Shown here in pieces: positions 2,598 to 28,109 of a stretch of 33,950 nt of DNA. Both the position numbers and the translations under genes were made by a program. Source of the stretch: a bacterium (lineage in GTDB: Bacteria; Verrucomicrobiota; Kiritimatiellia; CAIKKV01; CAIYGI01); contig JANYBP010000054.1 in assembly GCA_025360745.1 (NCBI GenBank), forward strand, positions 1 to 33,950, given 5' to 3'. Positions within the stretch are counted from its first letter, which is position 1. Every line of letters begins with the position of its first letter. The notes below the pieces were generated by a model. That model was not told the DNA's origin. It did no database searches and saw only the letters and a program-made list of their open reading frames with translations.

Positions 2598-2603
2598 CTT
2601 CTG
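2524..2603. repeat. Heptamer array: nine forward units plus short inverted arm
   Basis: Nine in-phase 7-bp units, 2524-2586, follow the pattern C[A/G]G[A/T][A/G]G[T/C] (CAGAAGC, CGGAAGT, CAGAGGT and so on). They are followed by the inverted version CTTCTGACTTCTG (2591-2603), so the ends can pair. The likely natural stop of the upstream hydrolase (TAG 2548-2550) lies inside the unit CAGTAGT. Confidence 0.85.
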
Positions 2604-2628
2604 TCGCTTTTGTCGCTTTTGTCGCTTT
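2602..2628. repeat. Three tandem copies of a 9-bp unit
   Basis: TGTCGCTTT is repeated three times without error (2602-2610, 2611-2619, 2620-2628), directly abutting the heptamer array. No function is evident. The T-rich strand could help end transcription of the upstream gene, but there is no good GC stem directly before it. Confidence 0.85.
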
Positions 2629-2684
2629 TTGATTGCCCCCTCCGGTCGCCCAAGTTATGATCCCCCGCGTGGTGGGGGCAATGT

Positions 2685-2720
2685 CGGTGAATCGGTGAAT
2701 CGGTGAATCGGTGAGTCGGT
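2685..2720. repeat. Tandem 8-bp repeat upstream of the dehydrogenase operon
   Basis: CGGTGAAT occurs three times in a row (2685-2692, 2693-2700, 2701-2708), then CGGTGAGT (2709-2716) and a partial fifth copy. The array ends six bases before a perfect TATAAT hexamer, so the repeat units occupy the -35 region. Confidence 0.85.
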
Positions 2721-2731
2721 GGTCATATAAT
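2703..2731 (+). promoter_or_regulatory. Candidate promoter of the dehydrogenase-aminotransferase operon
   Basis: A perfect -10 hexamer TATAAT lies at 2726-2731, 75 bases before the dehydrogenase start. The -35 position falls in the 8-bp repeat and matches poorly (GTGAAT at 17-bp spacing), which suggests an activator or an alternative sigma contact. The assignment rests on the -10 box alone. Confidence 0.45.
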
Positions 2732-11451: not shown

Positions 11452-11585
11452 CGGAAAGAGGTGGAAGGTGGGAGGTGGATGGTGGAGTGTCAGAGGTCGG
11501 TGAATTCTGACTCCGACTTCTGGCTTCTGGCTTCTGACTTCTGACTTCTGGGAGACAACTCCGAATCACCTGGAACGCAAATAAC
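11448..11585. repeat. Composite element with heptamer array, copy A
   Basis: The order is GAGGTGGAAGGTGGGAGGTG (purine-rich block), CAGAGGTCGG (forward heptamer), TGAATTCTG, about six reverse heptamers (TGGCTTC/TGACTTC, 11507-11548), then GGAGACAAC...CCTGGAACGCAA. The same modules in the same order make up 14041-14310. The right end overlaps the last codons of hipA, whose stop is at 11566-11568. Confidence 0.8.
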
Positions 11586-12816
11586 TTAGCATCGCCGTGG
11601 CGCGCTCCATGGCGAGCCCGGCCACGCGATCGGCCATGGCGTCGTTGCCGGCCGCCTTGCGGATGCCAGGGTCTTGCAGCGCTTCGATAGTCTTCCTGCA
11701 AAGCGACGCCATACGTTCCCGAATCATCGGCCAGCCCAGTCGCGCTTCCTGCGCCATCTTCTGCCAGGGGGCTGGCGTGAACGCGTCGAGGGACTTGCAG
11801 TCGCCGATTCTCATCGCCGGAGTTTTCGAGAGTTCGGGCCAAGCAATGGTGCAGACCAAGTCATAGAATGGCGCGAGTCTGCGCTGGCCTTCGTGGTAGA
11901 GCATGGAGTAATTCTTCCCATGGGCATCGGCATTGCCGATGAGCACGTTAAATATCTGGGCATCGAGGAAGTCCCGGATGTCCAGCACCGGAGTGGTGGA
12001 CCATTCGCGCAGTAACTCAATGCACTCCCGGAGCATGGGCCCGCCCTCCTGCTGGTACTTGCGTTCCGGTGGAAACCCCAGTGCCTGACAGAAATCTTCC
12101 TGATGAAGACGCAGCACGGCGCCGGACGCAGCGACCGTCCGGTCGTACCTCCGGACAAGGATGCAGGGCTTTTTGCCGACAGTGCGGCGGTCGACGGTGG
12201 CGACCTTCAACCCGACGGCCTTCGCAAGCGACATGCAGAACCACTCGTTCGCCGCCAACCCTGGGAATCGCTCCGGCTCCGGCTTCAAAATGTGCGTGCT
12301 CGGCGTGTTGCCCAACGGGAGGGACAGGCAGTCCTCGCGCACGACGACCGGAAGTTTATCCTGTGCGCCGGCCAGCGAAAGCCGGACGCCTTCTTCTCCC
12401 GCCATCAATGGCCGGGCGGGGAGTTCGGCCACGATCTTCTGTAGTTCCTCCCCGGACAAGGAACGCAACCGCGTTTCGCCCACGGCGGGCGGCGCGACGC
12501 CTTCCTGCAACAAACTGACCGCACCCGCGCACTCGCCGCCGATGCGCTCCAGCATGGCGAAGTCGTTGCCTTCGCTGATACCCAGAATGGCGGCGATGCG
12601 ATGCCGCGGTTCCGCGTCGGGCAAAATACCGGCGAAGAAAGCGCGGGCCTGTTTGCCACTGAACGGGGCCTCTTGCAGTGGCAGCGACCGTGAGAGTGGT
12701 GACGCGTCAGCCCGTTCAAGCCACTCCTGACGATAGCGAAACTCAAGCAGGCCGCTATTGTCCTGTTCGAGGGCGCCTGCCGGTATCCCGTTCAAATGGA
12801 CTATCAACCGCCTCAT
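11566..12816 (-). CDS. hipA: HipA-type serine/threonine kinase toxin
   Basis: 416-residue HipA kinase, with HipA_N and kinase-like HipA_C parts joined in one chain as in the E. coli protein (440 residues). The P-loop-like segment RLSLAGAQDKLP carries Ser147, equivalent to the autophosphorylated serine of E. coli HipA. The catalytic loop is GNADAHGKN (Asp297, Lys301, Asn302) and the metal site is FYDLV (Asp319). Family knowledge: HipA phosphorylates glutamyl-tRNA synthetase or related targets and induces dormancy. ATG 12816 overlaps the hipB stop by four bases, so the pair is translationally coupled. The 3' end merges into a heptamer-containing repeat, which supplies the sequence just after the stop codon. 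All key residues are intact, so it is probably functional. Confidence 0.9.
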   Translation of the reverse strand: MRRLIVHLNGIPAGALEQDNSGLLEFRYRQEWLERADASPLSRSLPLQEAPFSGKQARAFFAGILPDAEPRHRIAAILGISEGNDFAMLERIGGECAGAVSLLQEGVAPPAVGETRLRSLSGEELQKIVAELPARPLMAGEEGVRLSLAGAQDKLPVVVREDCLSLPLGNTPSTHILKPEPERFPGLAANEWFCMSLAKAVGLKVATVDRRTVGKKPCILVRRYDRTVAASGAVLRLHQEDFCQALGFPPERKYQQEGGPMLRECIELLREWSTTPVLDIRDFLDAQIFNVLIGNADAHGKNYSMLYHEGQRRLAPFYDLVCTIAWPELSKTPAMRIGDCKSLDAFTPAPWQKMAQEARLGWPMIRERMASLCRKTIEALQDPGIRKAAGNDAMADRVAGLAMERATAMLSYLRSR

Positions 12817-13052
12817 GGCTGAGCGCTTTCTTGTGCGGCGCCATGAACGCTCGTCAGTTCGACACGCAGCCCCAAGGTGTTCAGCACCTGCAACACCTTG
12901 GCGACCTGGCAGGTTGGTTTGCCCTTCTCCAGATCGATCAGGAAGCGCAGCCCCGTACCGCTGGTCATCGCCAGTTCCTTCTGGGTGACGTTGAGCCGTT
13001 TGCGCATCGACCTTACTGAAGCGCCGAGTTCCTTTGAATTTTTTATGTTCAT
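12813..13052 (-). CDS. hipB: HipB-type antitoxin, Cro/C1-type helix-turn-helix
   Basis: 79-residue DNA-binding protein. The helix-turn-helix spans about residues 8-62 (GASVRSMRKRLNVTQKELAM...GTGLRFLIDLEKGKPTCQVA...VLQVLNTLGL), typical of HipB and other XRE-family antitoxins. The short C-terminal tail (VHGAAQESAQP) is disordered-looking, as in HipB. It should neutralise the HipA kinase by complex formation and repress the operon. Three copies of a TTACCG-N2-CGGTAA palindrome lie directly upstream, the nearest ending two bases before the start codon. The ribosome binding site is poor (GGTAACC), so repressor binding could also affect initiation. Confidence 0.88.
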   Translation of the reverse strand: MNIKNSKELGASVRSMRKRLNVTQKELAMTSGTGLRFLIDLEKGKPTCQVAKVLQVLNTLGLRVELTSVHGAAQESAQP

Positions 13053-13054
13053 GG

Positions 13055-13068
13055 TTACCGTTCGGTAA
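13055..13068. promoter_or_regulatory. hipBA operator O1
   Basis: Perfect palindrome TTACCGTTCGGTAA, overlapping the candidate -10 box and ending two bases upstream of the hipB start codon. A repressor bound here would block both transcription start and ribosome access. Confidence 0.8.
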
Positions 13069-13095
13069 GTTATTGGTTCTAATGGCGGACGTCAA
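13067..13095 (-). promoter_or_regulatory. Candidate hipBA promoter
   Basis: On the minus strand -35 TTGACG (13090-13095) is separated by exactly 17 bases from -10 TAACTT (13067-13072). The -35 box matches five of six consensus bases; the -10 box is weak. O1 covers the -10 box and O2 lies just upstream of the -35 box, the geometry expected for autorepression. Confidence 0.6.
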
Positions 13096-13104
13096 CCATT
13101 AAAA

Positions 13105-13118
13105 TTACCGTTCGGTAA
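13105..13118. promoter_or_regulatory. hipBA operator O2
   Basis: TTACCGTTCGGTAA, identical to O1, with its centre 50 bases from it. It lies upstream of the -35 box. Confidence 0.8.
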
Positions 13119-13152
13119 CATTGAGCTTTTGATCTCTACCGCCGCGCATAAG

Positions 13153-13166
13153 TTACCGATCGGTAA
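13153..13166. promoter_or_regulatory. hipBA operator O3
   Basis: TTACCGATCGGTAA, the same palindrome with one changed central base. Its centre is 48 bases from O2. O1, O2 and O3 thus form a nearly evenly spaced array upstream of hipB. Confidence 0.78.
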
Positions 13167-13176
13167 CATGAAAGAG

Positions 13177-13340
13177 GCGGAAGGTGGATGGTGGAGGCGA
13201 TGAGAAGATGAACTACGAAAGACGCGAAATTCACGAGGAGAAGGCGGGAGCGAAGGAATTATCGGACAGGATGAACAGGATTTACGGGGATGAGAAGAGG
13301 TGGAGGGTGAACTGGCGAAAATCCGGTCAGGATGCGCGGG
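13177..13340. repeat. Composite dispersed repeat, copy 2
   Basis: It starts with a purine-rich lead-in (GGAAGGTGGATGGTGG), then GAGAAGATGAACTACGAAAG (13202), GACGCGAAATTCACGA, the 24-bp core at 13263-13286 identical to copy 1 (9676-9699), GGATGAGAAGAGGTGGAGGG, and a degenerate partial core at 13325-13336 (CCGGTCAGGATG). It fills the gap between the hipBA control region and the higBA-type module. Confidence 0.8.
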
Positions 13341-13363
13341 GACGGAGGCGGAACGCAACCGGG

Positions 13364-13663
13364 TCACGCGTGGGCGGGAACGGCATGCAGTTCGAGGCCC
13401 AGAACCCGCATGACTTTGAGGATTGTATCGAAGCCCGGGCTACGTTCGCCCGATAACGCTTTGTACAAACTCTCACGTGACAGGCCGGCATTCCGCGCCA
13501 CCTCGGACATGCCCTTGGCGCGAGCAATGTCGCCCAGGGCCTTGGCGATGAAAGCCGCATCGCCGTTGGCCCCCTCCAAACAAGCTTCCAGGTAGGCTGC
13601 CATTTCCGCGGGGGTGCGGAGGTGTTCCGCGACATCATAACGGGTAGTGATCGTCTTGCTCAT
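13364..13663 (-). CDS. HigA-type antitoxin (addiction-module antidote family, HTH)
   Basis: 99-residue antitoxin: the N-terminus MSKTITTRYDVAEHLRTPAEMAAYLEACL and the helix-turn-helix MSEVARNAGLSRESLYKALSG (about 53-73), followed by FDTILKVMRVLGLEL, match the addiction-module antidote family paired with RelE/HigB-like toxins. ATG 13663 has GGAG nine bases upstream, so the longer in-frame extension is unlikely. It lies ten bases downstream of the toxin gene, giving the toxin-first order typical of higBA. It should bind the toxin and repress the shared promoter, probably at the GTAGCC-N4-GGCTAC palindrome. Confidence 0.88.
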   Translation of the reverse strand: MSKTITTRYDVAEHLRTPAEMAAYLEACLEGANGDAAFIAKALGDIARAKGMSEVARNAGLSRESLYKALSGERSPGFDTILKVMRVLGLELHAVPAHA

Positions 13664-13673
13664 AGTCTTGCTC

Positions 13674-13964
13674 CTACAGATTCCTTGCGAGGCGCAATGC
13701 CGTTTTGATATCGGCGCTTTGTGTGCGTTTGTCGCCACCGGCCAAAAGAATGACAATATCGCGACCCCGTTTCATGAAATACACCCGATAACCTGGTCCG
13801 TAATCAATCCGCATTTCGCAAACGCCTTCTCCGACCGGTTTGACATCGCCGGCGAGTCCTGCTGCGAGGCGCTCTATCCTGGCTTGCACGCGCGCCCTTG
13901 CGCGAATATCGCTCAGGTCATCCAGCCACCGCGCAAAGGTCTCGGTCTTGCGGATCGCAACCAT
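13674..13964 (-). CDS. RelE/HigB-like toxin (phage Gp49 type)
   Basis: 96-residue toxin of the RelE/ParE superfamily, Gp49/HigB-1 branch. Motifs: TETFARWLDDLSDIRARARVQARI (helical N-terminus), the strand VKPVGEGVCEMRIDYGPGYRVYF, and VILLAGGDKRTQSADIKTA. The central basic/aromatic strand and the GGDK-QS-DI tail are hallmarks of the family, which mostly cleaves mRNA on the ribosome. ATG 13964 starts only seven bases after the candidate -10 box and has no Shine-Dalgarno sequence, so the transcript would be almost leaderless. It forms an operon with the antitoxin that follows. Confidence 0.88.
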   Translation of the reverse strand: MVAIRKTETFARWLDDLSDIRARARVQARIERLAAGLAGDVKPVGEGVCEMRIDYGPGYRVYFMKRGRDIVILLAGGDKRTQSADIKTALRLARNL

Positions 13965-13971
13965 GAACAGT

Positions 13972-14000
13972 AGTGTAGCCGCGTGGCTACGCTTTGTCAA
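13972..14000 (-). promoter_or_regulatory. Promoter of the higBA-type module
   Basis: Minus strand: -35 TTGACA (13995-14000, perfect), 17-base spacer, -10 TACACT (13972-13977). This is the best sigma70-like promoter in the window. The start codon is seven bases past the -10 box. Confidence 0.8.
13975..13990. promoter_or_regulatory. Probable antitoxin operator
   Basis: Palindrome GTAGCC, GCGT, GGCTAC lies within the promoter spacer and overlaps the -10 box. Its position suits autorepression by the HigA-like antitoxin. Confidence 0.65.
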
Positions 14001-14040
14001 TATCCTTATTCTGCTCTGCCCTTATTCTGCTCGATGCGCC

Positions 14041-14310
14041 GGGGGCGGGAAGAGGTGGAAGGTGGGAGGTGGAGGGTGGATGGTCAGAGGTCGGAGGTCG
14101 GAAGTCGGTGAATTCTGCTTCCGTCTTCTGACTTCTGGCTTCTGGCTTCTGGCTACTGACTTCTGACTACTGACTTCTGACTTCTGGCTTCTGACTTCTG
14201 ACTTCTGGCTTCTGACTTCTGACTTCTGACTTCTGGCTTCTGGCTTCTGACTTCTGACTTCTGGGCGACAATACAGAAATTACCCGGAACACAAGATTGA
14301 AACCATCCCC
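14041..14310. repeat. Composite element with heptamer array, copy B
   Basis: Module order matches copy A at 11448: a purine-rich GAGGTGGAAGGTGGGAGGTG block, three forward heptamers (CAGAGGT, CGGAGGT, CGGAAGT at 14085-14105), TGAATTCTG, a long reverse heptamer array, then GGCGACAA...CCCGGAACACAA. It is expanded relative to copy A mainly by the number of reverse units. It occupies most of the 436-base gap between the TA module and addB; no gene is supported. Confidence 0.85.
14129..14261. repeat. Nineteen-unit in-phase heptamer array
   Basis: Nineteen consecutive 7-bp units with no phase slip, all TG[A/G]CT[T/A]C. Only the third and sixth positions vary: 17 units are TGACTTC or TGGCTTC and two end in TAC. 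On the plus strand the array has many TGA triplets spread across all three frames, so it cannot be read through. Confidence 0.95.
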
Positions 14311-14326
14311 GCAAAACTGTACGGTC

Positions 14327-14355
14327 TTGGCTGGGCTGGGCGGGGCGCTTATGAT
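14327..14355 (+). promoter_or_regulatory. Candidate addBA promoter
   Basis: -35 TTGGCT (14327-14332), 17-base GC-rich spacer, -10 TATGAT (14350-14355), about 45 bases before the addB start. It lies just beyond the composite repeat, so the repeat does not separate it from the gene. Confidence 0.6.
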
Positions 14356-14400: not shown

Positions 14401-17214
14401 ATGGCGATAAAGAGAATATTTCTGGGCTGGGACCGGCCGCTTTGCGAAAGCGTGCCGGCCTATCTCATGGCCGGGGCGGGCGCGGGGTTGCTGGACCTGC
14501 GCGGCACGGTGCTGGTTGTGCCCACGCGCCAGTCGAGCTGGCGCTTGCACGCCGCACTGCCCTTGGCCGCCGATGCTCGCGGCGCCGTTTTGCTGGGACC
14601 GGAAATCGTGACCCCGCCGGTGCTGCTCGAACCGCCGCACAGCCCTGCGGTCGCCACAAATCTCCAAAGTCTGCTGGCCTGGTCCGCCATCCTTAAAGCC
14701 GTCAAACCCGGCGAACTGCCCGCCTTCATGGGCACGCGCGAAGGCCGCGCGCACGGCACGGCCTGGGCGCTGCAACTCGCGCGCCGTCTCCAGCTTTTAC
14801 GCGACGAACTGGCCGACGGCGGTCTGGCCATCGCGGACGTGGCCGCCCGTGGCGCGGAAATCGAGGAAGGCGAACGCTGGGCCGCCATGGCAGAGTTGGA
14901 GCGCCGCTATGCCGGACAACTCGAGAGCTGGCGCCTGCGCGATGCGCTGATGCTCAAACTCGCCCACGCGCGCCAGGGCCTACTCGCGCCAGAGGTTCGA
15001 CGGGTGGTGGTGGCGGCCGTGCCCGATCCCCCGAAACTTTTCATGACCTTGTTGAACCAATGGGCCGCCGCCGGCGGCACAGTCGAGGTGTTGCTGGCCG
15101 CTCCGGAAGCCATCTCCGCCGCCTTCGACAACTGGGGGCGCCCTCTGCCGGCAACCTGGCAGGCGCGCGCGCTCGCCCTGCCATCCGAAGACATCTGGCT
15201 TGAAGCCACGCCCGACGATCAGGCCGCGCGGATTGCCAAAGCCATCGCCGCCGGCTTGGGCGCCAAAGCGTCCGCTGCCGACCTGCGGCCGCAACTGGCG
15301 ATCGGCGTGCCCGACCGCGAAACCGTCGCCCCGCTACAGCGCGAGCTCGCCGCCATCGGCCTGCCGGCCTTCGATCCGCAAAACCGTCAGTTTGCCGATA
15401 GCGCGCTCTTCCGGCTGGTGCAAACGCTGCTGGCCCTGCGCAACCGGCCCGGCTACGCCGAAGTGGCCGCCTTGCTGCGCCATCCGGATGCGCTGGTGTT
15501 GTTCGATCGCCCCGCCGACCTGTTGCGCGAGTTGGATCAGTTGCAGTCCGAACATCTGCCGGTCACATTGGACGATATGCGCGCCGCTCCGCCACTTCTG
15601 AGCGGGGCCTTGGAGCGTGTCCGGGCCTGGCGCGGCGCGCTGATCGACTCCGACCTGGCCGCCGGTTTGCGAAAGGTGCTGCGGCAGCTATACGAACGCC
15701 GCCACCTCAAATCCGGCGAACCCGCGGATGCGGCCTTTCAGCAGGCCGTCGCCGCGTTCGACACGGGATTGAGGGAACTCGAAGCCGCCGCCGCCGCGGG
15801 GCACGCCGGCAATGAGGCCGCCGAGGCGCTGCTGGCGCGCTTGCAGGATGCCACCGTCAAGGGCGAGCGCCGCAATGAACTGCTCGATCTGGAAGGCTGG
15901 CTGGAACTGGCCTGGAATCCCGCGCCGCTGCTTTTCGTGGCCGGCATGAATGAGGGCTTTGTGCCCGACGGACATGTCGGCGACCTCTTTTTGCCCGACA
16001 CCCTGCGGCGACTGCTCGACCTGCGCGATGACAGTTTGCGCGTGGCCCGCGACGCCTATCTGCTTACCTCCCTGATTGAGCAACGCCGCGGACAGGGCCG
16101 GGTGATCCTGCTGGTGGGCAAGACCTCCAGCGCCGGCGATCCGTTGCGTCCTTCGCGTCTGCTCTTCCGCTGCCCCGACAAGGAACTTGTCGCCCGCGCA
16201 CGCTCGCTCTTCAAGGACCCGCCGCCTTCCCAGGCGGCCGAAGCCTATACGATCAGCTTCAAACTCGATCCCGCACTCCTGCCGGAAGACTGTATTGACG
16301 CCAGGCGCGCGCGGGAGTTGAGTCCCACCATCTTCCGGGACTACCTCGCCTGTCCGCTGCGCTTTTACCTGCGGCACGTTCTGGGCATGACCGCGCTGGA
16401 TGACCGCGCGCGCGAACCGGACGCGCGGGCCTTCGGGAACTTGGTTCACGAAGTGCTCGAAGAGATGGGCCGGGACCGCCGCCTCTGGGCCTGCGACGAT
16501 GGCGCCGAACTGGCGCGCTGGCTGGAACAACGACTGGCGGAACTGGCGCGCAACCGCTACGGCGCCCGGCCTTGGCTGGGAGTCGAACTGGCCATGGCCA
16601 GCGCCGCGCAGAGGTTAAAAGTCTTTGCGCAAAAGCAGCTCGCCTGGCGCGCGGCGGGCTGGGAGATCGTCCAGCATGAAGCGGGCAAGTCCCGCGAAAT
16701 CGGCGGCTTGACGGTCAAAGGACGCATTGACCGGATTGACCGGAACATTCAAACCGGCCTGGTTTGCGTGCTCGATTACAAGACCACCGACAAGACCAAG
16801 ACGCCCGCGGAAACGCATTTTGGCCCCGCCTGCGAAGATGACGATCTGCCAGCCGCCGGCATTTCGGCGGAACTGGCGGGCGGCGGCAGGGCTAAACGTT
16901 GGGCCGATCTGCAACTGCCGCTCTACCGCGAGCTGGTCCGGTCTGAGTTCGGACCCCAGGTGCAACTTGGATACTTTTGTCTGCCCAATGCCCTCGGCGA
17001 TACGGATGTCACACTCTGGGATGCTTACAGCGACGCCCTGCACGACTCCGCCATCCAATGCGCGGAGGCCGTGGTGCAGCGCATCAAGCAGGGCATTTTC
17101 TGGCCGCCGGTCAAACTCAAGACGGGTTATGACGACGATCTTGCCGGCGTACTGCCCGGCGACCCGGCCAAAAGCATCGTACCTCCCCCACCCCCGTGGA
17201 GGGCGGCAAAATGA
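14401..17214 (+). CDS. addB: AddB-like subunit: inactivated helicase fold plus PD-(D/E)XK nuclease
   Basis: 937-residue partner of a UvrD/AddA helicase in double-strand-break end processing. The N-terminal two thirds are helicase-like without a Walker A motif (VLVVPTRQSSWRLHAAL near 37-53; LLFVAGMNEGFVP near 518-530, a degenerate helicase segment). The C-terminal nuclease has LSPTIFRDYLACPLRFYLRH, His683 in GNLVHEVLEEM, Asp777 in KGRIDRID, the Asp792-Tyr-Lys794 core in VLDYKTTD, and LQLPLYREL (motif Q-x3-Y). The CxxC-containing C-terminal cluster of Bacillus AddB is absent, so it probably lacks the iron-sulfur cluster. The ribosome binding site is weak (GGCGGAAG touches the ATG). The stop overlaps the addA start by four bases (ATGA). 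Confidence 0.85.
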   Translation: MAIKRIFLGWDRPLCESVPAYLMAGAGAGLLDLRGTVLVVPTRQSSWRLHAALPLAADARGAVLLGPEIVTPPVLLEPPHSPAVATNLQSLLAWSAILKAVKPGELPAFMGTREGRAHGTAWALQLARRLQLLRDELADGGLAIADVAARGAEIEEGERWAAMAELERRYAGQLESWRLRDALMLKLAHARQGLLAPEVRRVVVAAVPDPPKLFMTLLNQWAAAGGTVEVLLAAPEAISAAFDNWGRPLPATWQARALALPSEDIWLEATPDDQAARIAKAIAAGLGAKASAADLRPQLAIGVPDRETVAPLQRELAAIGLPAFDPQNRQFADSALFRLVQTLLALRNRPGYAEVAALLRHPDALVLFDRPADLLRELDQLQSEHLPVTLDDMRAAPPLLSGALERVRAWRGALIDSDLAAGLRKVLRQLYERRHLKSGEPADAAFQQAVAAFDTGLRELEAAAAAGHAGNEAAEALLARLQDATVKGERRNELLDLEGWLELAWNPAPLLFVAGMNEGFVPDGHVGDLFLPDTLRRLLDLRDDSLRVARDAYLLTSLIEQRRGQGRVILLVGKTSSAGDPLRPSRLLFRCPDKELVARARSLFKDPPPSQAAEAYTISFKLDPALLPEDCIDARRARELSPTIFRDYLACPLRFYLRHVLGMTALDDRAREPDARAFGNLVHEVLEEMGRDRRLWACDDGAELARWLEQRLAELARNRYGARPWLGVELAMASAAQRLKVFAQKQLAWRAAGWEIVQHEAGKSREIGGLTVKGRIDRIDRNIQTGLVCVLDYKTTDKTKTPAETHFGPACEDDDLPAAGISAELAGGGRAKRWADLQLPLYRELVRSEFGPQVQLGYFCLPNALGDTDVTLWDAYSDALHDSAIQCAEAVVQRIKQGIFWPPVKLKTGYDDDLAGVLPGDPAKSIVPPPPPWRAAK

Positions 17215-20200
17215 ACGGCTTCAAAAACCGCGCCATCTCCGCCTCGGCCGGCACGGGTAAAACCTTCAGGCTGGCCCACCGCTATCTTGGACTGATGGCC
17301 GCCGGCGTCCCGCCCGATCGTATTTGCGCGCTCACCTTCTCCCGCAAGGCCGCAGGCGAGATTTTCGACAAGATCGTCGAACACCTTTGCGCGGCGGCGA
17401 GCGATGGCGGCAAACGCGCCCGCACCGCCGCGACCATCGCGAAAGAGGGTTTGTCCGCGCCGCCGGACCGCCCGGAGGCCTATGTCAGTCTCTTGCGCAA
17501 GTTGCTGGATCACGAACACCGCCTGCACATCGGCACGCTGGACAGTTTTATCCTCGGCGTCGTGCGCGCCTTCCCGATGGAACTGGGCATTCCGCCCGAG
17601 ACCAAGCCCATGGACGGCGATGGCGGCGAAGCTTTGGCCATGCGCCAGGACATATTGACCCGGCTCTTCGATCCCACGCAACGGCCGGGCAAGGAAAGCG
17701 GGCGTGAGGGCAGCGCCTTTCTGCGGGATTTTCGACTGGCCTGTTTCGGCCAGGAGACAAAAACGCTGGTCGCCATCCTCGACAGACTGATTTCCGAGCA
17801 CTATGGATTCTACCGTCAACACAACAAGACAACCTGGCGCTGGGGCGATCCTGACCGCATCTGGCAGCCCGCCGAACGGTGGTGGGAGGATCACGGGCAA
17901 AAATCCTCCGCAATACCAGACGGACTGCTGGAGGAGCTGGCCACCGCCTTCGGACCCGGCGCAAGGTCTGAAGCCCTTGGCAATGCCTGCGCCCTGATCG
18001 CGGCGGCCGGCATAACGCACGCCGCCGACAAACCGTGGCCCGATCTCAACGCAACCATTTTGGATAAACTGCTGCCGCTCGCCGCGCGCAACGAGAACCC
18101 GCTTGTCTCGTATTACAAAAAGGAATATTCGATCCCCGCCGGACTTTGGAACCCGTTGCGCCGCGCCTTGTGCAACTTGATCGGCGTGGAGGTGGAGCGG
18201 GCGCTGGCGCGGACCCAGGGCCTGCGCGCCGTGCTGGACCGCTACGAAAAACTCTACGACGACGCCCTGAGCCTGGACGGCCGCTATACCTTCGAGGATC
18301 TCTCGCGCCTGCTCGGCGCCGATGGGCTCAGCCCCAGCCGCACGCCGGCCGCTCCCAACCGTCTCTACATTGACTACCGCCTCGACGGCAAACTGGACCA
18401 CTGGCTGCTGGATGAGTTTCAGGACACCAGCGACACCCAGTGGGCCGCGCTGGCAAACCTGATTGACGAAGTCGTCCAGGATCAAAACCGCTCCTTCTTT
18501 TATGTGGGCGACGTCAAGCAGTCCGTCTACGGCTGGCGCGGCGGCAACCACCGCCTCTTCGGCGAGGTGCTGAAAAAATACGGAAATCCCGGTCGGCGCG
18601 CGATCGTCTCCGAGGCCATCGCCGAATGTCACCGGTCGCTGCCGGCGGTCATCGAGACCGTTAATATGGTCTTCGACGGCATAGCGGAGTGGAGGCCGGC
18701 GGGCGGCGACGATCAAGGACCGCGCCGGGAAGCGGTCGCGGCTTTCGCCGGAGTTTGGAAGAAGCACGAAAGCGCCCGCCTGGGTGAAGGCGCGGGTTTT
18801 GCCGCCCTGCTGGAGTACCTGCCGAAGAAAACCAGTGGGGCGACGCAGGCTGGCGTCGGCGGGGACGAGGATGGGTCCGACGATCCAGCCGAGTTTGAGG
18901 CGGTCGCAAAAGTGCTGGAGCAGTCGCAGCCCACCCGGCGCGGCCTCACGGCGGCCGTCTTGGTGCGCAGCAACAGGGCGGGCCGCGATTGCGTGGACGT
19001 GCTGCGCCGCCGGTTGCCCGATGTGCCGGTCGTGCATGAAGGCCAGGGCGGCATTGTGGACAATCCCGTGGTCACGCTGTTGCTGGCCCTGATCCGTTAC
19101 GCCGCGCATCCCGGCGATAGCGTGGCCAAACGTCATCTCCAGATGAGTCCGCTGGCCAAACAACCGGAATTACAGAACCTCGATGCCCTGCCCGGCTGCT
19201 TCCTGACCGCTCTGCATGAACGCGGTTTCGCGGGCGCACTGCGCGAGTGGGGCGAGCGCCTGGGCGCGCTCGACGCCTTCGGAAGACAGCGCCTGCGCGA
19301 AATGCTGGCGGCGGCGGAACAGTTCGACGCCGGCGGCGCGCGCGACCCCGACGCCTTCGCCGATCACATTCAGGCCTACCAGGTCAGAGCCAGCGCCGCC
19401 GCGGGCACGGTGCGCGCGATGACCATTCACCAGGCCAAGGGCCTGGGCTTCGATCTGGTGATCGTGCCTTTCGCCGCCAACGCCAGGAGTTTCGAAAAAC
19501 CCGGCGATCCGGAGTTGCTGGCGGGCGCCGATTGGGTGCTCGATCCGCCAGGCCATCAGGCCTTGAATGCCGCCGCCGGATGGCCATTGCGGGCCCTGGA
19601 CGCCGCCCGCGCGGACGCCAATTTTGCGCAATTCTGCGTTCTCTACGTTGCGCTGACGCGCGCCCAGCGGGCGCTCTACATGATCGTCCCCGCCAGGGCC
19701 AAACAATCGCACACCGTCCGCGAAGCGGATCTCCTGCGCGAACGCCTCGCGCCGGACGGCAAACCCGGCGCCGGCCCGGGCGGCCTGACGCAACTTTTTG
19801 CCACTGGCGACAGCGCGTGGTTCAAGCAACCCGGCAAGAACGTCCAAGCAACGCCGACCGTCCATCCACCCGCGCCGGTCTGCGTGACACAAGCCGCGGA
19901 AATGGCGCGCCGCGAGCCGTCCAAGGAGCAGGCCGAAGGCCGCACCTTCCCGGCGCACTGGCTCTTCAACGTCGAGTCGGGCGACGTGCGGGCCTTCGGT
20001 TCCGCCATCCATCGCCTCTTCCAAAAGATCGAGTGGATCGAGCACGCGGATATCGATCGCATCATCGCCGAGTGGCGTGGAGAATCGGCGGAACCCGCGC
20101 ATTTATTGGACAACGTAGAACAACAGTTCCGCGTTTGTCTGGCCAACCAGGAAATCCGGCAACGCCTGGCCAGACCAGCCGGCGCGGCGCAAACAGAGGT

Positions 20201-20504
20201 CTGGCGCGAAGCGCCCTTCGACCTGGTGCTGGAAACAGAGGGCGAAAGGCAGTTGATAAGCGGACGGTTCGACCGGCTGGTGGTGGAGCGCGACGCCGCC
20301 AACCGGCCGCTGCGGGCCACGGTTTTCGACTTCAAGAGCAATCGCGTCGATACCAAGTCCGCCTTGCGTGAAGCGGCCGAAGGCTACGCCCGCCAGATGG
20401 CCGATTACGCCCGCGCCGCCGCCCGCCTGCTCAACCTTCAGTCCGCGCAAGTGGATATCGTCATGCTCTTCACCCGCCAGGGGTGGATTTGGACGATTCG
20501 GTGA
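17211..20504 (+). CDS. addA: AddA/RecB-like UvrD-family helicase with C-terminal nuclease
   Basis: 1097-residue superfamily 1 helicase-nuclease. Walker A is SASAGTGKT (Lys17) and Walker B LLDEFQDTSD (Asp401, Glu402). Further helicase motifs are VGDVKQSVYGWRGG, TVRAMTIHQAKGLGFDLVI and LYVALTRAQRALY. The C-terminal nuclease has ISGRFDRLV, Asp1040/Lys1042 in VFDFKSN, and EGYARQMADYARA. All active-site residues of both engines are visible. ATG 17211 follows GGAGGG with seven-base spacing and overlaps addB; the in-frame GTG 17196 is less likely. With AddB it should unwind and resect broken ends to load RecA, and may also degrade phage DNA. Length and motif order match AddA (about 1,100-1,250 residues). 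Confidence 0.88.
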   Translation: MNGFKNRAISASAGTGKTFRLAHRYLGLMAAGVPPDRICALTFSRKAAGEIFDKIVEHLCAAASDGGKRARTAATIAKEGLSAPPDRPEAYVSLLRKLLDHEHRLHIGTLDSFILGVVRAFPMELGIPPETKPMDGDGGEALAMRQDILTRLFDPTQRPGKESGREGSAFLRDFRLACFGQETKTLVAILDRLISEHYGFYRQHNKTTWRWGDPDRIWQPAERWWEDHGQKSSAIPDGLLEELATAFGPGARSEALGNACALIAAAGITHAADKPWPDLNATILDKLLPLAARNENPLVSYYKKEYSIPAGLWNPLRRALCNLIGVEVERALARTQGLRAVLDRYEKLYDDALSLDGRYTFEDLSRLLGADGLSPSRTPAAPNRLYIDYRLDGKLDHWLLDEFQDTSDTQWAALANLIDEVVQDQNRSFFYVGDVKQSVYGWRGGNHRLFGEVLKKYGNPGRRAIVSEAIAECHRSLPAVIETVNMVFDGIAEWRPAGGDDQGPRREAVAAFAGVWKKHESARLGEGAGFAALLEYLPKKTSGATQAGVGGDEDGSDDPAEFEAVAKVLEQSQPTRRGLTAAVLVRSNRAGRDCVDVLRRRLPDVPVVHEGQGGIVDNPVVTLLLALIRYAAHPGDSVAKRHLQMSPLAKQPELQNLDALPGCFLTALHERGFAGALREWGERLGALDAFGRQRLREMLAAAEQFDAGGARDPDAFADHIQAYQVRASAAAGTVRAMTIHQAKGLGFDLVIVPFAANARSFEKPGDPELLAGADWVLDPPGHQALNAAAGWPLRALDAARADANFAQFCVLYVALTRAQRALYMIVPARAKQSHTVREADLLRERLAPDGKPGAGPGGLTQLFATGDSAWFKQPGKNVQATPTVHPPAPVCVTQAAEMARREPSKEQAEGRTFPAHWLFNVESGDVRAFGSAIHRLFQKIEWIEHADIDRIIAEWRGESAEPAHLLDNVEQQFRVCLANQEIRQRLARPAGAAQTEVWREAPFDLVLETEGERQLISGRFDRLVVERDAANRPLRATVFDFKSNRVDTKSALREAAEGYARQMADYARAAARLLNLQSAQVDIVMLFTRQGWIWTIR

Positions 20505-20511
20505 GATGACT

Positions 20512-20547
20512 GTAACACAATACAACTTTATTGTTGTATTATGTTAC
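20512..20547. promoter_or_regulatory. Large inverted repeat, likely operator of the AbiE-type module
   Basis: Left arm GTAACACAATACAAC (20512-20526), spacer TTTATT, right arm GTTGTATTATGTTAC (20533-20547): 15-bp arms with one mismatch in an AT-rich pocket of otherwise GC-rich DNA. A -10-like TATTAT (20537-20542) lies in the right arm, and a related half-site ATATTGTAG follows. AbiEi antitoxins are known to bind inverted repeats and repress their operon; this site fits that role. A terminator for addA is less likely because the stem is AT-rich and no T-run follows. Confidence 0.7.
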
Positions 20548-20595
20548 TCAATATTGTAGTTTCTCGCTTCACCGAATGGGCATGAGGAAAGCGCG

Positions 20596-21378
20596 ATGAA
20601 CAAAGACGAACAAGCGACGATCGTGGATGCCGTGCAGAAGGCTATTGTCAGGTTGGTCGCCACCAGTCCGGCGGGCCACAATTTGATCCTGATCGGCGGG
20701 TTTAGATACCGGTTTCTCGACCAAAGCGTGCGAATCTCCAAAGACATAGATTACCACTGGGCGGGAGAAATCGAAGAAAAGCAACGAGAACTGATTGGCA
20801 TGTTTAAAAAACGGCTTTTGCCTGTGCTGCGCCGACAATTCGGGTTTGCCGGGAGCGTGGCAGCGGCAACCGGGCCCGAAGCCGACTCCCCCGCCGTGAG
20901 AACCGTTCTCGTTGCGGTATGGAAGGTAGGCGTTGCATACAGCCGGATCGAGATTCCTGTGGAGGTCACGCAGATACGTTATTCGGACAAGATGGAAATC
21001 CGCACGGTGGATGGTGTCGTTTACCCCACTTTTTCCGACGCGGACATGGTCGAAAGCAAGATCGTGACCATCTTCAACCGACGAACGATTGAGCATCGCG
21101 ACTTGGTGGATATTTTTTTGTTCGGAAACAAACTGGTTTCGCGATCCCACGAACGCGTGGCGAAAAAATTAAAAACCTTGGGAATAGCGCGCTCAGTCAT
21201 AGAGGAAAAAATGCGAGATCTGGATCGGCACGCCGCTTATCATGGCAAGGCCATTCAGACGATCATCAATACGCAGCTCGATCCCGAGGCGGCTAAAAAC
21301 ATCGACGCGGCTGGCGGCGGAGCGTTGGTGCTGAAGCGTGCGACAGCGACGATCCGTAACATCGTCATGGCAAAATGA
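20596..21378 (+). CDS. AbiEii/AbiGii-family nucleotidyltransferase toxin
   Basis: 260-residue protein with the nucleotidyltransferase signature of type IV toxins: LILIGGFRYRF (Gly34-Gly35), then VRISKDIDYHW with Asp50 and Asp52 as metal-binding acidic residues. Glu123 in IEIPVEVTQI is the likely third, and Lys155 in MVESKIVTIF plus RDLVDIFLF (168-176) are typical of the AbiEii fold. Family knowledge: these enzymes modify tRNA or use GTP to block growth during phage infection. ATG 20596 follows GAGGAAAGCG at suitable distance. The stop overlaps the next start by four bases (ATGA), and the next gene encodes the AbiEi-like partner. The classical order is antitoxin then toxin; here it is reversed. 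Confidence 0.8.
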   Translation: MNKDEQATIVDAVQKAIVRLVATSPAGHNLILIGGFRYRFLDQSVRISKDIDYHWAGEIEEKQRELIGMFKKRLLPVLRRQFGFAGSVAAATGPEADSPAVRTVLVAVWKVGVAYSRIEIPVEVTQIRYSDKMEIRTVDGVVYPTFSDADMVESKIVTIFNRRTIEHRDLVDIFLFGNKLVSRSHERVAKKLKTLGIARSVIEEKMRDLDRHAAYHGKAIQTIINTQLDPEAAKNIDAAGGGALVLKRATATIRNIVMAK

Positions 21379-21968
21379 AAACTTCCGACTGGATGAAGTT
21401 TCTGGACTTCCAGAACCGGCGGCATGGAAAAGCGCTTTTTCGTGTCGCCGAACTTGCCAACGCGACCGGCCACGCCCCGCACGCATTAAATGTCGAGTTG
21501 GGACGTCTGGCGAGCAAGGGTGCGATCGCCCGCTACGCTACGGGCGTGTACGGACTGCCGGGGCGCGCAACTCCGGAAGAACTTGTTACGGTACTGGATA
21601 ACGGCGCTTACATCACGGGAGCCTATGCCCTGAATCGCCAGAACTTGATAACCCAAGCGTCCTCCGAGATCGTCTGCTTTACGAACCGCCGCCACAACCG
21701 CTCCCGCGCGAGAACGACCCCGTTCGGAAAAATAGTGTTTGTCCGCGTCGCCTCCAATATCTACCGTAAACCGGCTGAGGGCGCTCTGGCGCCACCCGAG
21801 CAGGCTTTTTGTGATTTTGTCCGCCTGACCCAGAGACAGGGGCTTGACCCTTCCACAATCGTCACGTTCCGGGGCTTGAACACATTGTCGAAAAGCCGCC
21901 TGTCCGCCGTACTGAAGCGCTATCCGCTGACAGTTCTGAGAAAGGCGAACCAACTACTCGGAATCTGA
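21375..21968 (+). CDS. AbiEi-like winged-helix antitoxin
   Basis: 197-residue protein with an N-terminal winged helix (RVAELANATGHAPHALNVEL...RLASKGAIARYATGVYGLPG, about 23-64), then the AbiEi C-terminal region (ITGAYALNRQNLIT, FGKIVFVRVASNIY, PEQAFCDFVRL). The FxxxxR-A-NG-Y type recognition wing (here ARYATGVYGLP) is characteristic of type IV antitoxins. It acts as a transcriptional repressor, likely through the inverted repeat at 20512-20547, and counters the upstream nucleotidyltransferase without needing stable binding. It is translated by coupling to the toxin gene. The C-terminal part is a little shorter than in streptococcal AbiEi, but no truncation is obvious. Confidence 0.75.
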   Translation: MKTSDWMKFLDFQNRRHGKALFRVAELANATGHAPHALNVELGRLASKGAIARYATGVYGLPGRATPEELVTVLDNGAYITGAYALNRQNLITQASSEIVCFTNRRHNRSRARTTPFGKIVFVRVASNIYRKPAEGALAPPEQAFCDFVRLTQRQGLDPSTIVTFRGLNTLSKSRLSAVLKRYPLTVLRKANQLLGI

Positions 21969-22079
21969 TCCGCTCTCCGCTTGAACGCCTACCCCGCTTG
22001 AGTTGCGCCCGTGGGGGGGCGTGTGTTATCTAGTTTGGCCGCCGCGCGGTCGATCGCGCGGTGGTGGGAAAACACGCTC

Positions 22080-23211: not shown

Positions 23212-25749
23212 ATGTCCAAGAAACTGGTAATTGTGGAATCGCCGGCGAAGGCGAAGACGATCAATAAAATTTTGGGCGGCGATTTCCAGGTCAAAGCCTC
23301 CATGGGCCACATTCGCGATCTGCCTAAGAAGAGCCTGGGCGTGGACCTGGAAAACCATTTCAAGCCGGAATACGAAGTCTCGCCAGATCGCGCCAAACTG
23401 GTGAAGGAACTCCAGGCGCTGGCCGCCGACGCGACGGATATCTATCTGGCGCCCGATCCTGACCGCGAAGGGGAGGCCATCGCCTGGCACCTCGAGGCGC
23501 TGCTGAAACCCAAGGCCAAGCAGGCCGCCTTTCATCGCGTGACCTATAACGAGATCACCCCGCGCGCGGTGCGCGAGGCGTTTGCCCATCCGCGCGAGAT
23601 CGACATCCGGCGCGTGGATGCCCAGCAGGCCCGGCGGGTGCTGGACCGCATCGTCGGCTACAAAGTCAGCCCGCTGCTCTGGCGTCGCATCTACCGCGGA
23701 CTCAGCGCCGGACGCGTGCAATCGGTGGCCCTGCGCCTGGTCTGCGAGCGCGAGCGCGCCATCCTGGCCTTTGTATCCGAACCTTACTGGATCATGGGCG
23801 CCGAAGTGCGCAAATGCGTCGCGCCGCTCGATCCCTTCACTGTGCGCCTGGCGCGCATTCGCGGCGAAAAGGCCGAGATCAAGAGCGAGGAACAGGCCGC
23901 CACGGTGCGCCGCGAACTGGAGGCGAGTTCGCTGCGGGTGCGCGGTGTGACCACGCGCGAGCTGCAGCGCCGCCCCTATCCGCCCTATATCACCAGCACG
24001 CTGCAGCAGGCCGGTTCGGCCAACTTCGACTTTGCCCCGGCGCGCACGATGAAACTCGCGCAGCAGCTTTACGAGGGCGTCAACCTGGGCGAAGGTCCGG
24101 TCGGACTGATCACCTACATGCGTACCGATTCGGTGGCGGTGTCGCAGGACGCCGCGGCGGAGTGCCGGACGCTGATCGGCGAGCTTTACGGCGCGTCTTA
24201 TCTTCCCGAAAAGCCCAACGTCTACCGCTCCCGCGGCAACGCGCAGGAAGCCCACGAAGCCATTCGCCCGACCGATGTGCGCCGCACGCCGGAAAAAATG
24301 GCGGGCTTCCTGAGTCCGGACGACTTGAAACTCTACGGTTTAATCTGGCAGCGCTTCGTGGCCAGCCAGATGGCGCCGGCGCGCATCCGGCAGAATACGG
24401 CGGAGATCGAGACCGAAACCCCGGCCGGGCAAACACCCGCGTACCTCTTTCGCGCCACGGCCTCCGAGGTCGTTTTCGCGGGCTGGACGAAGGTCGCGGA
24501 CGACGCCAAAGCCAGGCGCGCCAAGCAACGCGAGGCCGAGAAGGACGAGTCCGCCACGGACGCCAGGGATGACGAGGACGACGAGGTGGCGCGCCTGCCG
24601 CCGCTCGTGGCCGGAGAACCGCTGGACCTGCTGAAGTGGCTGGAAGAGCGCAAGGAGACCCAGCCGCCGGCGCGCTTCAACGAGGCCTCGCTGATCAAGA
24701 CGCTCGAAGAGAACGGCGTCGGACGCCCCAGCACTTACGCCTCGATTCTGGCCACGCTTTTTGGACGCAAGTATATTTTGAAAGAACGGCGCGCGCTCGT
24801 TCCGACGCCGGTGGGCTTGCGGGTCAACGACCTGCTGGTCGGTTCGCTGGGCAAACTTTTCGAGGTCAGTTTCACCGCCGAGATGGAAAAGGAACTGGAC
24901 GAGGTGGAGGAAGGCGGACTGCTCTGGACCAAGATGCTGGAGGATTTCTACACCAAGTTCCAGGCCTGGATGGCCGACGCCAAGGGGCCGCCGGTGGACC
25001 TGGATAAATTGCGGGTTTTGATCGCGGCCCTGGGCCAGGTGCAGACCTGGGCGCCCGCCACCAAACGCGGCAAGCGCGCCTACAGCGACGACGGTTTTGT
25101 GGCCTCCGTGACCAAGCAGATGGAGACCGGCGAAAAGGCCATGTCCGACCGCCAGGTGGAGGCCATGGCCCGCCTGGTGGTGCGCTACAAGGAGCAGATT
25201 CCCGACGCCGAGGCGGCGCTGCATAAGGCGGGGCTGGAACGCCTGCTTACCGAACCGGCCGCCGAACCGCCCAACGCCGCCACGCGCCGCAAGATCGTAT
25301 TGCTCGCGGGCGTGCAGATGGAACCGCCGACCAAACGGCGCGGGCGCGTCTATGACGATGCCGCGTTCTTCAGTTCGCTGCGGCGGCGGGTCGAGTCCGA
25401 CCGCAACCTGACGCCCGCCCAGCTCGGCGCCCTCAACAAGATCGTGATCAAGTACGCGGATCGCATTCCCGACTTCGACGCCCAGCGCGATACGCTGGAA
25501 TTGGGCGAGGCCGGCGCCCCGGCCGCGCCCGATCCCGAGACCGAGGGCTGGCTGCGGCAACTCTCCGCCGTGACCGCCTGGGCGCCGTCAACCACCAAGG
25601 GCAAACGCACCTTCGACGACAAGGAGTTCTACACCTCCCTCTCCCGCCAATTTGCCTGCAAGAAGAGCCTCTCCCCGCGCCAGAAAGGCGCGCTCAAAGC
25701 CATGCTCAAGCGTTACTCCAAAACGGCGGAATCGCAGGCTGAGGTCTGA
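23212..25749 (+). CDS. topA: DNA topoisomerase I (type IA) with unusual C-terminal repeats
   Basis: 845-residue omega protein that relaxes negative supercoils. The Toprim domain is at the start (LVIVESPAKAKT, LAPDPDREGEAIAWH) and the active-site Tyr302 is in LITYMRTDS. RVDAQQARRVLDRIVGY and YRGLSAGRVQSVALRL are standard. No zinc-ribbon cysteines are found. Instead there are three degenerate repeats of about 65 residues (about 603-669, 695-762, 780-840) with the pattern W-x-P, K-[RK]-G-[KR]-x-Y/F-x-D-D-x-x-F-x-x-S, LS-x-x-Q-x-x-A, RY. ATG 23212 follows AAGGAG. The stop TGA (25747-25749) falls inside the first unit of a heptamer array. Neighbours are dprA and, after an inserted TA module, a Xer recombinase. 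Confidence 0.93.
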   Translation: MSKKLVIVESPAKAKTINKILGGDFQVKASMGHIRDLPKKSLGVDLENHFKPEYEVSPDRAKLVKELQALAADATDIYLAPDPDREGEAIAWHLEALLKPKAKQAAFHRVTYNEITPRAVREAFAHPREIDIRRVDAQQARRVLDRIVGYKVSPLLWRRIYRGLSAGRVQSVALRLVCERERAILAFVSEPYWIMGAEVRKCVAPLDPFTVRLARIRGEKAEIKSEEQAATVRRELEASSLRVRGVTTRELQRRPYPPYITSTLQQAGSANFDFAPARTMKLAQQLYEGVNLGEGPVGLITYMRTDSVAVSQDAAAECRTLIGELYGASYLPEKPNVYRSRGNAQEAHEAIRPTDVRRTPEKMAGFLSPDDLKLYGLIWQRFVASQMAPARIRQNTAEIETETPAGQTPAYLFRATASEVVFAGWTKVADDAKARRAKQREAEKDESATDARDDEDDEVARLPPLVAGEPLDLLKWLEERKETQPPARFNEASLIKTLEENGVGRPSTYASILATLFGRKYILKERRALVPTPVGLRVNDLLVGSLGKLFEVSFTAEMEKELDEVEEGGLLWTKMLEDFYTKFQAWMADAKGPPVDLDKLRVLIAALGQVQTWAPATKRGKRAYSDDGFVASVTKQMETGEKAMSDRQVEAMARLVVRYKEQIPDAEAALHKAGLERLLTEPAAEPPNAATRRKIVLLAGVQMEPPTKRRGRVYDDAAFFSSLRRRVESDRNLTPAQLGALNKIVIKYADRIPDFDAQRDTLELGEAGAPAAPDPETEGWLRQLSAVTAWAPSTTKGKRTFDDKEFYTSLSRQFACKKSLSPRQKGALKAMLKRYSKTAESQAEV

Positions 25750-25801
25750 GGTCGGAAGTCAGAGGTCGGAAGTCAGAGGTCGGAAGTCGGAAGTCGGAGG
25801 T
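25746..25801. repeat. Heptamer array, eight forward units at the topA 3' end
   Basis: Eight in-phase units: CTGAGGT, CGGAAGT, CAGAGGT, CGGAAGT, CAGAGGT, CGGAAGT, CGGAAGT, CGGAGGT. The first unit supplies the topA stop codon. There is no inverted arm. Confidence 0.88.
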
Positions 25802-26217
25802 CGGCGAAGAACGCGCCGGTGCGGACGACTTGTTACGCCGAAATGGGCTATTGCACCGGTCGGTAGAGACGCACATTCTATTCACCGATACGGAACAATA
25901 AGATTGTTTGGCACAGCCGCATACATCGGACTCCGAGGTGTCAGGGGTACGTTTCATGACGCACGCTCTGGCATTTGTCGGTCCGTTTGGCTTGGGACTC
26001 TTGTGTGAGGACCTTTGCCAGAAGTTTTTTGTCAAAGGATCTGCTTGAAGTGCAACTGGCAACGCCGCGCGCAGTAATGGGTCAGTGCCGCAGGTTGGCG
26101 TTTCGTGGCGCAAGCGTCCCGCTTGCACAGTCCAATCCAGAGGCTTACCCCACAGGATCAGTCCGCCGCGTCACTTACCCCTTACGCAATCTTTTTGAAG
26201 GGGCTCTCAAATAGCAG
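25802..26217. other. Intergenic region between topA and mazEF-like genes
   Basis: About 415 bases with no convincing gene; short frames exist but lack ribosome binding sites and recognisable composition. It contains one perfect palindrome at 26110-26126. The base composition is lower in GC than in the flanking genes, consistent with inserted DNA. Confidence 0.5.
26110..26126. repeat. Perfect extragenic palindrome
   Basis: GCAAGCG, loop TCC, CGCTTGC. It has the same architecture (GC stem, 3-base loop) as the hairpin at 5617-5637 but a different stem sequence. No T-tract follows. Confidence 0.65.
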
Positions 26218-26246
26218 TTGATCCTGAAATGGGTATGATGTATAGT
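26218..26246 (+). promoter_or_regulatory. Promoter of the mazEF-like module
   Basis: -35 TTGATC (26218-26223), 17-base spacer, -10 TATAGT (26241-26246), 28 bases before the antitoxin start. Confidence 0.7.
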
Positions 26247-26252
26247 CATACC
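26232..26252. promoter_or_regulatory. Probable mazEF-like operator
   Basis: Inverted repeat GGTATGA, 7 bases, TCATACC, spanning the -10 box. It is positioned for autorepression by the ribbon-helix-helix antitoxin. Confidence 0.7.
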
Positions 26253-26273
26253 GCAACCATCAAGGAGGCGCTT

Positions 26274-26516
26274 ATGGCAGTGGCAAAGATCGCGATCACT
26301 CTCGAACGTGACATTCTCGGCGAGCTTGACCGGCTTGTGAGACGGCATGTTTTTCCCAATCGCAGTCGCGCCATTCAGGAAGCCGTCAGGGAGAAGGTGA
26401 CGCGCCTTTCCGTCAACCGGCTTGCCCGCGAATGCGCCAAACTCGACGCCAGGTCTGAGCAGTCGTTGGCCGAGGAAGGTATCTCTGGAGAGGGTGTCGC
26501 ATGGCCAGAATACTGA
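26274..26516 (+). CDS. Ribbon-helix-helix antitoxin (MazE/CopG-like)
   Basis: 80-residue antitoxin. The N-terminal strand [21 protein letters not shown] and helix [16 protein letters not shown] form a ribbon-helix-helix DNA-binding fold of the MazE/CopG type. The acidic C-terminal tail ([19 protein letters not shown]) is the expected toxin-binding part. ATG 26274 has AAGGAGG six bases upstream; an earlier in-frame ATG lies within the promoter and can be excluded. The 3' end overlaps the toxin gene by 16 bases. The palindrome across the -10 box is its likely operator. Confidence 0.88.
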
Positions 26517-26872
26517 GGGGCGACATACTTTGGGCCGATCTTAACCCGGTCAAGGGGCATGAACAGGCTGGACTTCGTCCGGTGTTAATCCTCAGCCCGG
26601 AGATTTTCAACGAGCGGTCCGGCACGGTGATTGCGATGGCGCTCACAAGCCAGCCACAAAGAGCAGGCTTCCCATTGACTCTTGAAATCAGCAGTTGTCC
26701 CCTACCTAAACCGACATGGGTAAAAATCAGCCAAATACGAACCATCTCCGTGGAACGTCTTGGGAAAAGCTTGGGCCACGTCTCGGATGACGAGATGAGC
26801 CAGATCATCGAGGGGCTCAACGAAATCATCGGTGAAGGCGCTCCCGGTTATCGACGCTCGCGCTTCCGTTAG
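26501..26872 (+). CDS. MazF/PemK-type endoribonuclease toxin
   Basis: 123-residue toxin of the MazF/PemK family. The start [30 protein letters not shown] is diagnostic (RGD-W-x-DL-P-x-G-x-E, RPVL). Then come [17 protein letters not shown] and [17 protein letters not shown], with the conserved Thr/Ser-rich strand and the catalytic Arg in the RPVLIL region. Family knowledge: it cleaves mRNA at short sequence motifs. The gene overlaps the antitoxin by 16 bases with GGAG upstream of ATG 26501. It sits between topA and xer, where no TA module is expected in the usual dprA-topA-xer order. Confidence 0.9.
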
Positions 26873-27967: not shown

Positions 27968-28013
27968 CGCGCTATCAGCGTAGTCGTTCTCAAACCCGCG
28001 TCTTGCAGGAATT

Positions 28014-28096: not shown

Positions 28097-28109
28097 TTCT
28101 GCGATTTCT

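Follow-up and report, generated by a model that had tools for sequence, protein, structure and literature searches.

A tandem-heptamer array between divergent genes is one arm of an inverted pair within a genome-wide intergenic repeat family

The heptamer array at 14129-14261 of the 33,950-nt stretch of DNA analysed here (the window) forms one arm, long and pyrimidine-rich, of an inverted pair; the partner, a purine arm, lies at 14052-14108 (Table 1). We consider it probable that the pair is an inherited intergenic inverted-repeat element, the right arm of which expanded by slippage in this lineage. It comprises two tandem-heptamer arms, purine-rich on the left and pyrimidine-rich on the right, that meet at GAATTC, and is one of a large family filling the spaces between genes. 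On its own the focal array is ordinary; the part worth following is the replacement of words at the level of whole elements, with the layout conserved.

Read in sevens, the focal array consists of 11 TGACTTC, six TGGCTTC, one TGGCTAC and one TGACTAC unit, corresponding to TGRCTWC with five invariant positions and a phase that never slips (GAAGTCA/GAAGCCA on the other strand). Direct reading thus bears out the first-pass annotation, which had described 19 in-phase heptamers varying at two positions, and a TRF call extends the array to a whole pyrimidine arm of 22.3 copies (14109-14263), or 22 units if the degenerate edge units are included. The further proposal that the A/G order could date duplications found no backing, with no autocorrelation of unit order at lags 1-7 and a longest repeated block of five units (p about 0.5). 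A readable A/G code and block duplications were accordingly rejected, as the order cannot be told from shuffled ones. We also rejected a protein-coding reading: although frames read through the array, it contains no gene according to our codon-usage caller, and the frame on the minus strand runs antisense to that of the nuclease gene. No Rfam family was found within the window, and a literature search for the exact sequence GAAGTCAGAAGTCA gave no match.

The purine-arm units are of the reverse-complement type of the pyrimidine-arm units, but the focal purine arm matches its partner poorly (4/7 positions). The predicted RNA fold of 14036-14275 reaches −106 kcal/mol (z = −6.8). For the focal arms the predicted fold is strong on the plus strand only, at −83.7 versus −32.8 kcal/mol, which we attribute to the many G-U pairs that turn into A-C mismatches on the other strand. 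The G-rich part of the region is limited to the outer purine arm and left flank (14040-14083).

Table 1. Positions of the focal pair, its neighbours, other arrays of the window and orthologous sites with different words. Positions are those of the window unless a locus is named.
Feature	Position	Strand	Remark
GAAGTCA-type array	2520-2587	+	read as C-terminal tail of gene called at 213-2597
Third paired array	11458-11551	.	GAGGTGG-type, then CTTCTGG
HI1420-type antitoxin-like gene	13364-13663		next after toxin-like gene
Gp49/HigB-type toxin-like gene (PF05973)	13674-13964	-	left neighbour
Sigma-70-like promoter match TTGACA-17-TACACT	13972-14000	-	faces toxin-antitoxin pair; consensus match only
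Purine arm	14052-14108	+	about 8 units, GAGGTGG (outer) drifting to GAGGTCG/GAAGTCG (inner)
Inner degenerate in-phase units, pyrimidine arm	14109-14128	+	CTGCTTC, CGTCTTC
GAATTC	14110-14115	.	self-complementary hexamer where purine units turn to pyrimidine units
Pyrimidine-arm core	14129-14261	+	19 in-phase TGRCTWC units
Weak promoter-like match TTGGCT-17-TATGAT	14327-14355	+	between array and nuclease gene; consensus match only
AddB-like PD-(D/E)XK nuclease gene (PF12705)	14401-17214	+	right neighbour
AddA-like UvrD helicase gene	17196-20504		next after nuclease gene
Unpaired GAGGTCR/GAAGTCR array	25741-25804	+	3′ end of topoisomerase gene
Second paired array	28009-28094	.	GAATTCA/GAAGTCA, then TGACTTC; between convergent genes
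Orthologous sites, different words	L039 6077-6299 / L115 11957-12168
Orthologous sites, different words	L044 1915-2144 / L120 1094-1249
Orthologous sites, different words	L030 9670-9945 / L189 2258-2489

The focal pair belongs to a family that recurs throughout the genome. Our counts draw on about 878 kb from this genome and 757 kb from a sister species, with genes called by our own simple codon-usage caller, and include an unbiased sample of 40 contigs not picked for arrays (558 kb). In that sample seven is the smallest period at 55 tandem-repeat loci, versus two loci at period 6 and six at period 8, and a first-order Markov version of the same sequence holds no period-7 array. A search of the genome (3.0 Mb, 131 contigs) with the three-unit focal pattern gave 44 places, and one with the reversed control pattern gave none; together, pattern search and Markov control exclude a chance origin of the focal array. 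When multiples of seven are included, the sample holds 75 loci (52 intergenic, 5 partly intergenic, 18 coding), such that 57/75 fall at least in part outside genes, in a sample of which 86% is coding. Units fall into related word families that include GAAGTCA, GAGGTCG, AAGGTGG, AGGGTGG, GGGTTCA, GAATTCA, GAACACC and others. Since a 24-unit TAGGTGG array (L041 13791-13957, 98% match) is both longer and cleaner, the focal array is not an extreme case, and the window itself has at least six further period-7 places besides the focal pair.

Arms within the family follow a consistent layout. The sampled sequence contains 26 opposite-strand pairs with gaps of 4-391 nt, and adjacent arms run purine then pyrimidine in 26 cases and in the reverse order once; purine-first pairs outnumber pyrimidine-first pairs by 7 to 0 in the unbiased sample alone and by 8 to 1 in the sister. 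Similarly, arrays are purine-rich where the left gene is the nearer one and pyrimidine-rich where the right gene is (Fisher p = 1.6e-4 for the unbiased sample of this genome and 1e-6 for the sister). A general purine bias of intergenic halves was dismissed as the cause of this polarity, with values of 0.505 for left and 0.496 for right halves. Partner arms match at 5.46/7 unit positions versus 4.47 when permuted (p = 5e-5), and their duplex energy likewise points to a closer resemblance than between permuted partners (p = 0.008). The G+C content of partner arms is also correlated (rho = 0.44), and the match may be due in part to common base composition; it could also reflect selection for pairing. 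The lengths of partner arms are uncorrelated (rho = −0.08), as independent slippage predicts. Hairpins predicted across pairs have a median z of −5.0, and arms lie a median of 15 nt from a gene end. Per intergenic base, arrays are scarcer in divergent promoter regions and densest between convergent genes, the latter in an array-selected sample. Overall, a purine-left/pyrimidine-right layout with matched arms of unmatched length constrains any mechanism, and pure slippage does not obviously comply.

The focal pair sits between divergent genes and upstream of both, with about 138 nt separating the end of the focal array from the start codon of the next gene. Promoter-like matches flank the pair, one on each side, and both fall outside it. 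AddB homologues at 61-62% identity occur on contigs named Kiritimatiellae, among others, and one at 89-90% identity belongs to an uncultured bacterium (CAIYGI010000097.1); by its identical match coordinates this is evidently the same contig as C97 of the sister genome.

Besides this genome, our search within the genus covered only that sister genome (G001), which has about 91% DNA identity. At the focal site it retains the right flank, the same right array boundary and a shorter pair, with GAATTC likewise near the centre; the compared stretch spans 106 nt in the sister versus 218 nt here, with 18 shared 9-mers. The left flank differs between the species, and the toxin-antitoxin region of the focal locus was not found in the sister. 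The first-pass annotation had offered recent expansion or selection for the unit as the origin of such regularity. Recent expansion gains support from the sister's orthologous right arm, which is much shorter and more mixed, and from differences between the species in the length, presence or make-up of other arrays. Selection for the unit is not supported at this locus, where units in the arm of the sister have drifted (CTTGCTC).

Elsewhere the differences go beyond copy number. At its 3′ end, the topoisomerase gene has an array of about nine units here and about four in the sister, and the GAAGTCA pair at 28009-28094, between a xerC-like gene and its convergent right-hand neighbour, is wholly absent from the sister, which has one TCAGCG in place of the two flanking copies found here. 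We compared 22 variable orthologous sites, several of which hold repeats of unrelated words in the two species. Arrays share no 9-mer at L039 6077 (GGTGTTC versus GAATATCC), L044 1915 (GGTGTTC versus GTTAGGCT), L030 9670 (GACGCAAAG versus GGAGTCA) or L035 8049. Inverted arms are strong in both species at L044 (z −6.1 and −7.1), with uneven support at L039 (z −2.6/−7.1) and L030 (z −0.7/−2.7). Boundary microhomologies at variable sites measure 2, 3, 5, 6 and 18 nt, and a target-site duplication of fixed length was rejected on account of this variation. Two processes thus seem to operate: copy-number change in an inherited pair at the focal site, and gain, loss or replacement of whole elements elsewhere.

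The window carries four toxin-antitoxin-like or HipA-like modules (HipA, Gp49/HI1420, AbiEii-like and RHH/PemK; 11566-13964, 20596-21968 and 26229-26872), which adjoin heptamer arrays or, for the AbiEii-like module, occupy a site where the sister has an array. At window 20509-21992 an AbiEii-like toxin cassette is present here, in place of which the sister has a TAGGTGG/CGTTGAG array and no such cassette. The distance from the topoisomerase gene to the PemK module is 0.4 kb here (window 25770-26202) versus about 3.7 kb in the sister (L091 10808-14480).

Paired heptamer repeats of this kind are already known from Geobacter and Xanthomonas, and this bacterium, probably a Kiritimatiellae species, adds one more case. 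In Geobacter metallireducens, the name 'class 3 predicted global regulator binding sites' was given to multicopy sites of five tandem heptanucleotides (consensus MTYCTGA), in a set of site classes that are mostly paired and drawn switching strands, with a putative binding role (PMC2700814). When rotated to CTTCTGA, 11/19 focal units fit this consensus exactly, and the remainder are one or two positions off CTTCTGA. Opposite-strand pairing as in class 3 is likewise found here (14052-14108 with 14109-14263), albeit with a drifted purine arm. The class 3 sites differ in having about five units per site across 16 sequences from a different phylum, compared with 19 units in the focal array, and this genome uses several heptamer words besides the MTYCTGA-like one.

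The heterogeneous heptamer arrays of Xanthomonas (GGGAATC) and Nostoc (GGGGA(C/T)T) are about 90% intergenic, with 70-75 inverted 'convergent' pairs per Xanthomonas genome, and the Xanthomonas study found no function for them (PMC4692102). Features common to Xanthomonas and this genome are intergenic inverted pairs whose purine-rich strand is the sense strand downstream of stop codons and the antisense strand upstream of start codons, a paucity between divergent genes, and length variation between close species (PMC4692102). In contrast, the Xanthomonas and Nostoc units have G tracts and form quadruplexes (PMC4692102), whereas TGRCTWC/GAAGTCA units have no GGG tract; the unit here is different from GGGAATC, and word families switch between species at some sites. 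A looser parallel is provided by TAACTGA direct repeats, which are abundant, intergenic and phylogenetically scattered among Beggiatoaceae, Cyanobacteria and Bacteroidetes, with up to 43 copies in some species; in the main species most of them immediately precede a start codon, and the 169 sets include one indirect repeat (PMC4679880). Those repeats use a single word, whereas the focal unit is different and lies farther from its start codon. As summarized in PMC4679880 and PMC4692102, Mrazek et al. 2007 found that, in the majority of the bacterial genomes examined, long repeats most often have a unit of seven, and proposed polymerase slippage favouring 7-nt units; going by these summaries, paired arms and word replacement at orthologous sites are outside that survey.

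The Geobacter likeness raises the possibility that the arms are paired binding sites, on which a putative global regulator or nucleoid-associated protein would load and bridge the two. Nearly the same word in strand-switching G. metallireducens pairs (PMC2700814) and a single polarity genome-wide would suit such a role. However, a sequence-specific regulator would not tolerate different word families at orthologous sites of close species, the neighbouring genes are diverse, arrays are fewer in divergent promoter regions per intergenic base, and the source itself treats the regulator label as putative (PMC2700814); we regard this reading as tentative and on balance unlikely. It is rather doubtful that the pair acts as an RNA hairpin, that is, a REP-like terminator or 3′-end stabiliser for transcripts from both sides. 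The strong predicted hairpins, at the focal pair and over pairs generally, the closeness of arms to gene ends and the density between convergent genes (per intergenic base, array-selected sample) all argue for it, but the focal pair lies upstream of both neighbours, a search for terminator-like sites with a U run gave none, arm lengths are not balanced, and several sites are empty in the sister. A phase-variation switch, in which copy number would alter expression of the nuclease or the toxin-antitoxin genes, draws on the placement of the array between two divergent promoter-like matches and on its different length in the two species. We consider it very unlikely, because the array is outside both matches, neither between a −10 and −35 nor in a reading frame, and the family also adjoins housekeeping-type genes such as those for topoisomerase and a xerC-like recombinase.

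At otherwise intact sites (window 27981-28109, L085 2280, L117 9659 and others) one species has a whole pair, loop included, that the other lacks, as expected of a mobile paired element that, like REP/BIME, is moved in trans by a transposase or some other enzyme. REP/BIME elements have palindromic units of 20-40 nt and are associated with a Y1-type transposase gene; here, in contrast, the units are 7 nt and non-palindromic. The genome does contain three Y1_Tnp-type matches, two above cut-off, but of two inspected loci the first lacks tandem arrays and the second shows just a weak GAGGTCG stretch of 3.9 units, adjoining a 40-bp repeat. A Y1 transposase/REP origin was therefore rejected, as the matches are not tied to heptamer arrays. 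The variable boundary repeats also argue against a fixed target duplication, the loops are unrelated to each other, and deletion between short direct repeats would leave identical empty sites, such that mobility of this kind appears quite improbable. Addition templated by a reverse transcriptase was rejected for lack of an RVT_1 match in the 94%-complete genome. The remaining concern is assembly: the array and a short read are of similar length, hence its copy number may be wrong, and in what may be a short-read assembly the exact number is uncertain. An artefact of collapsed or expanded reads is nonetheless extremely unlikely to account for the array's existence, because the independently assembled sister has an orthologous array with the same right boundary; furthermore, the unit variants are distinguishable and the family is genome-wide.

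We return to an inherited inverted-repeat element, probably with a slippage-expanded right arm. The common ancestor of both species would already have carried the element, whose right arm would then have grown in this lineage by slipped-strand replication, aided by potential fold-back of each strand, with the arms changing copy number independently. Its presence between genes is tolerated, and a hairpin may form from its DNA or RNA; an essential role at this promoter-side location probably does not exist.

Slippage alone does not account for unrelated words at the same orthologous sites of close species, nor for the recurrence of the same words at many loci and in distant taxa. (GAAGTCA)3 occurs in 13/289 genomes of a phylum sample and in 9/58 relatives, and (GAACACC)3 in 8/97 genomes of the class. 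Among IMG/VR contigs, which may include host DNA, (TGACTTC)3 matches 51 stretches versus 0 for its permuted word, and (GAACACC)3 matches 13 versus 2, with one permuted control per word. It is conceivable, if unlikely, that an unrecognised process writes paired heptamers between genes from a common vocabulary (GAAGTCA, GAACACC, GACGCAAAG, GTTAGGCT and others), swapping words, keeping the inverted purine-first layout and drawing on words common to distant phyla. Together, this genome and its sister make a usable test system, in which the same flanking genes enclose pairs that are longer, absent or respelled.

The gene at 213-2597 reads through its heptamer array (window 2520-2597) into a basic C-terminal tail ending RSRKSVVRSRKSEVRGQRSVF, and the sister's topoisomerase appears likewise to read into its own array. 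Close behind the array at 2520-2587 lie a nine-base CTTTTGTCG array (window 2598-2629) and an eight-base TCGGTGAA array (window 2684-2721). At L076 6672-6854 and L058 5446-5687, the loops between heptamer arms contain additional inverted repeats that are not built of heptamers, an arrangement resembling nested palindromes.
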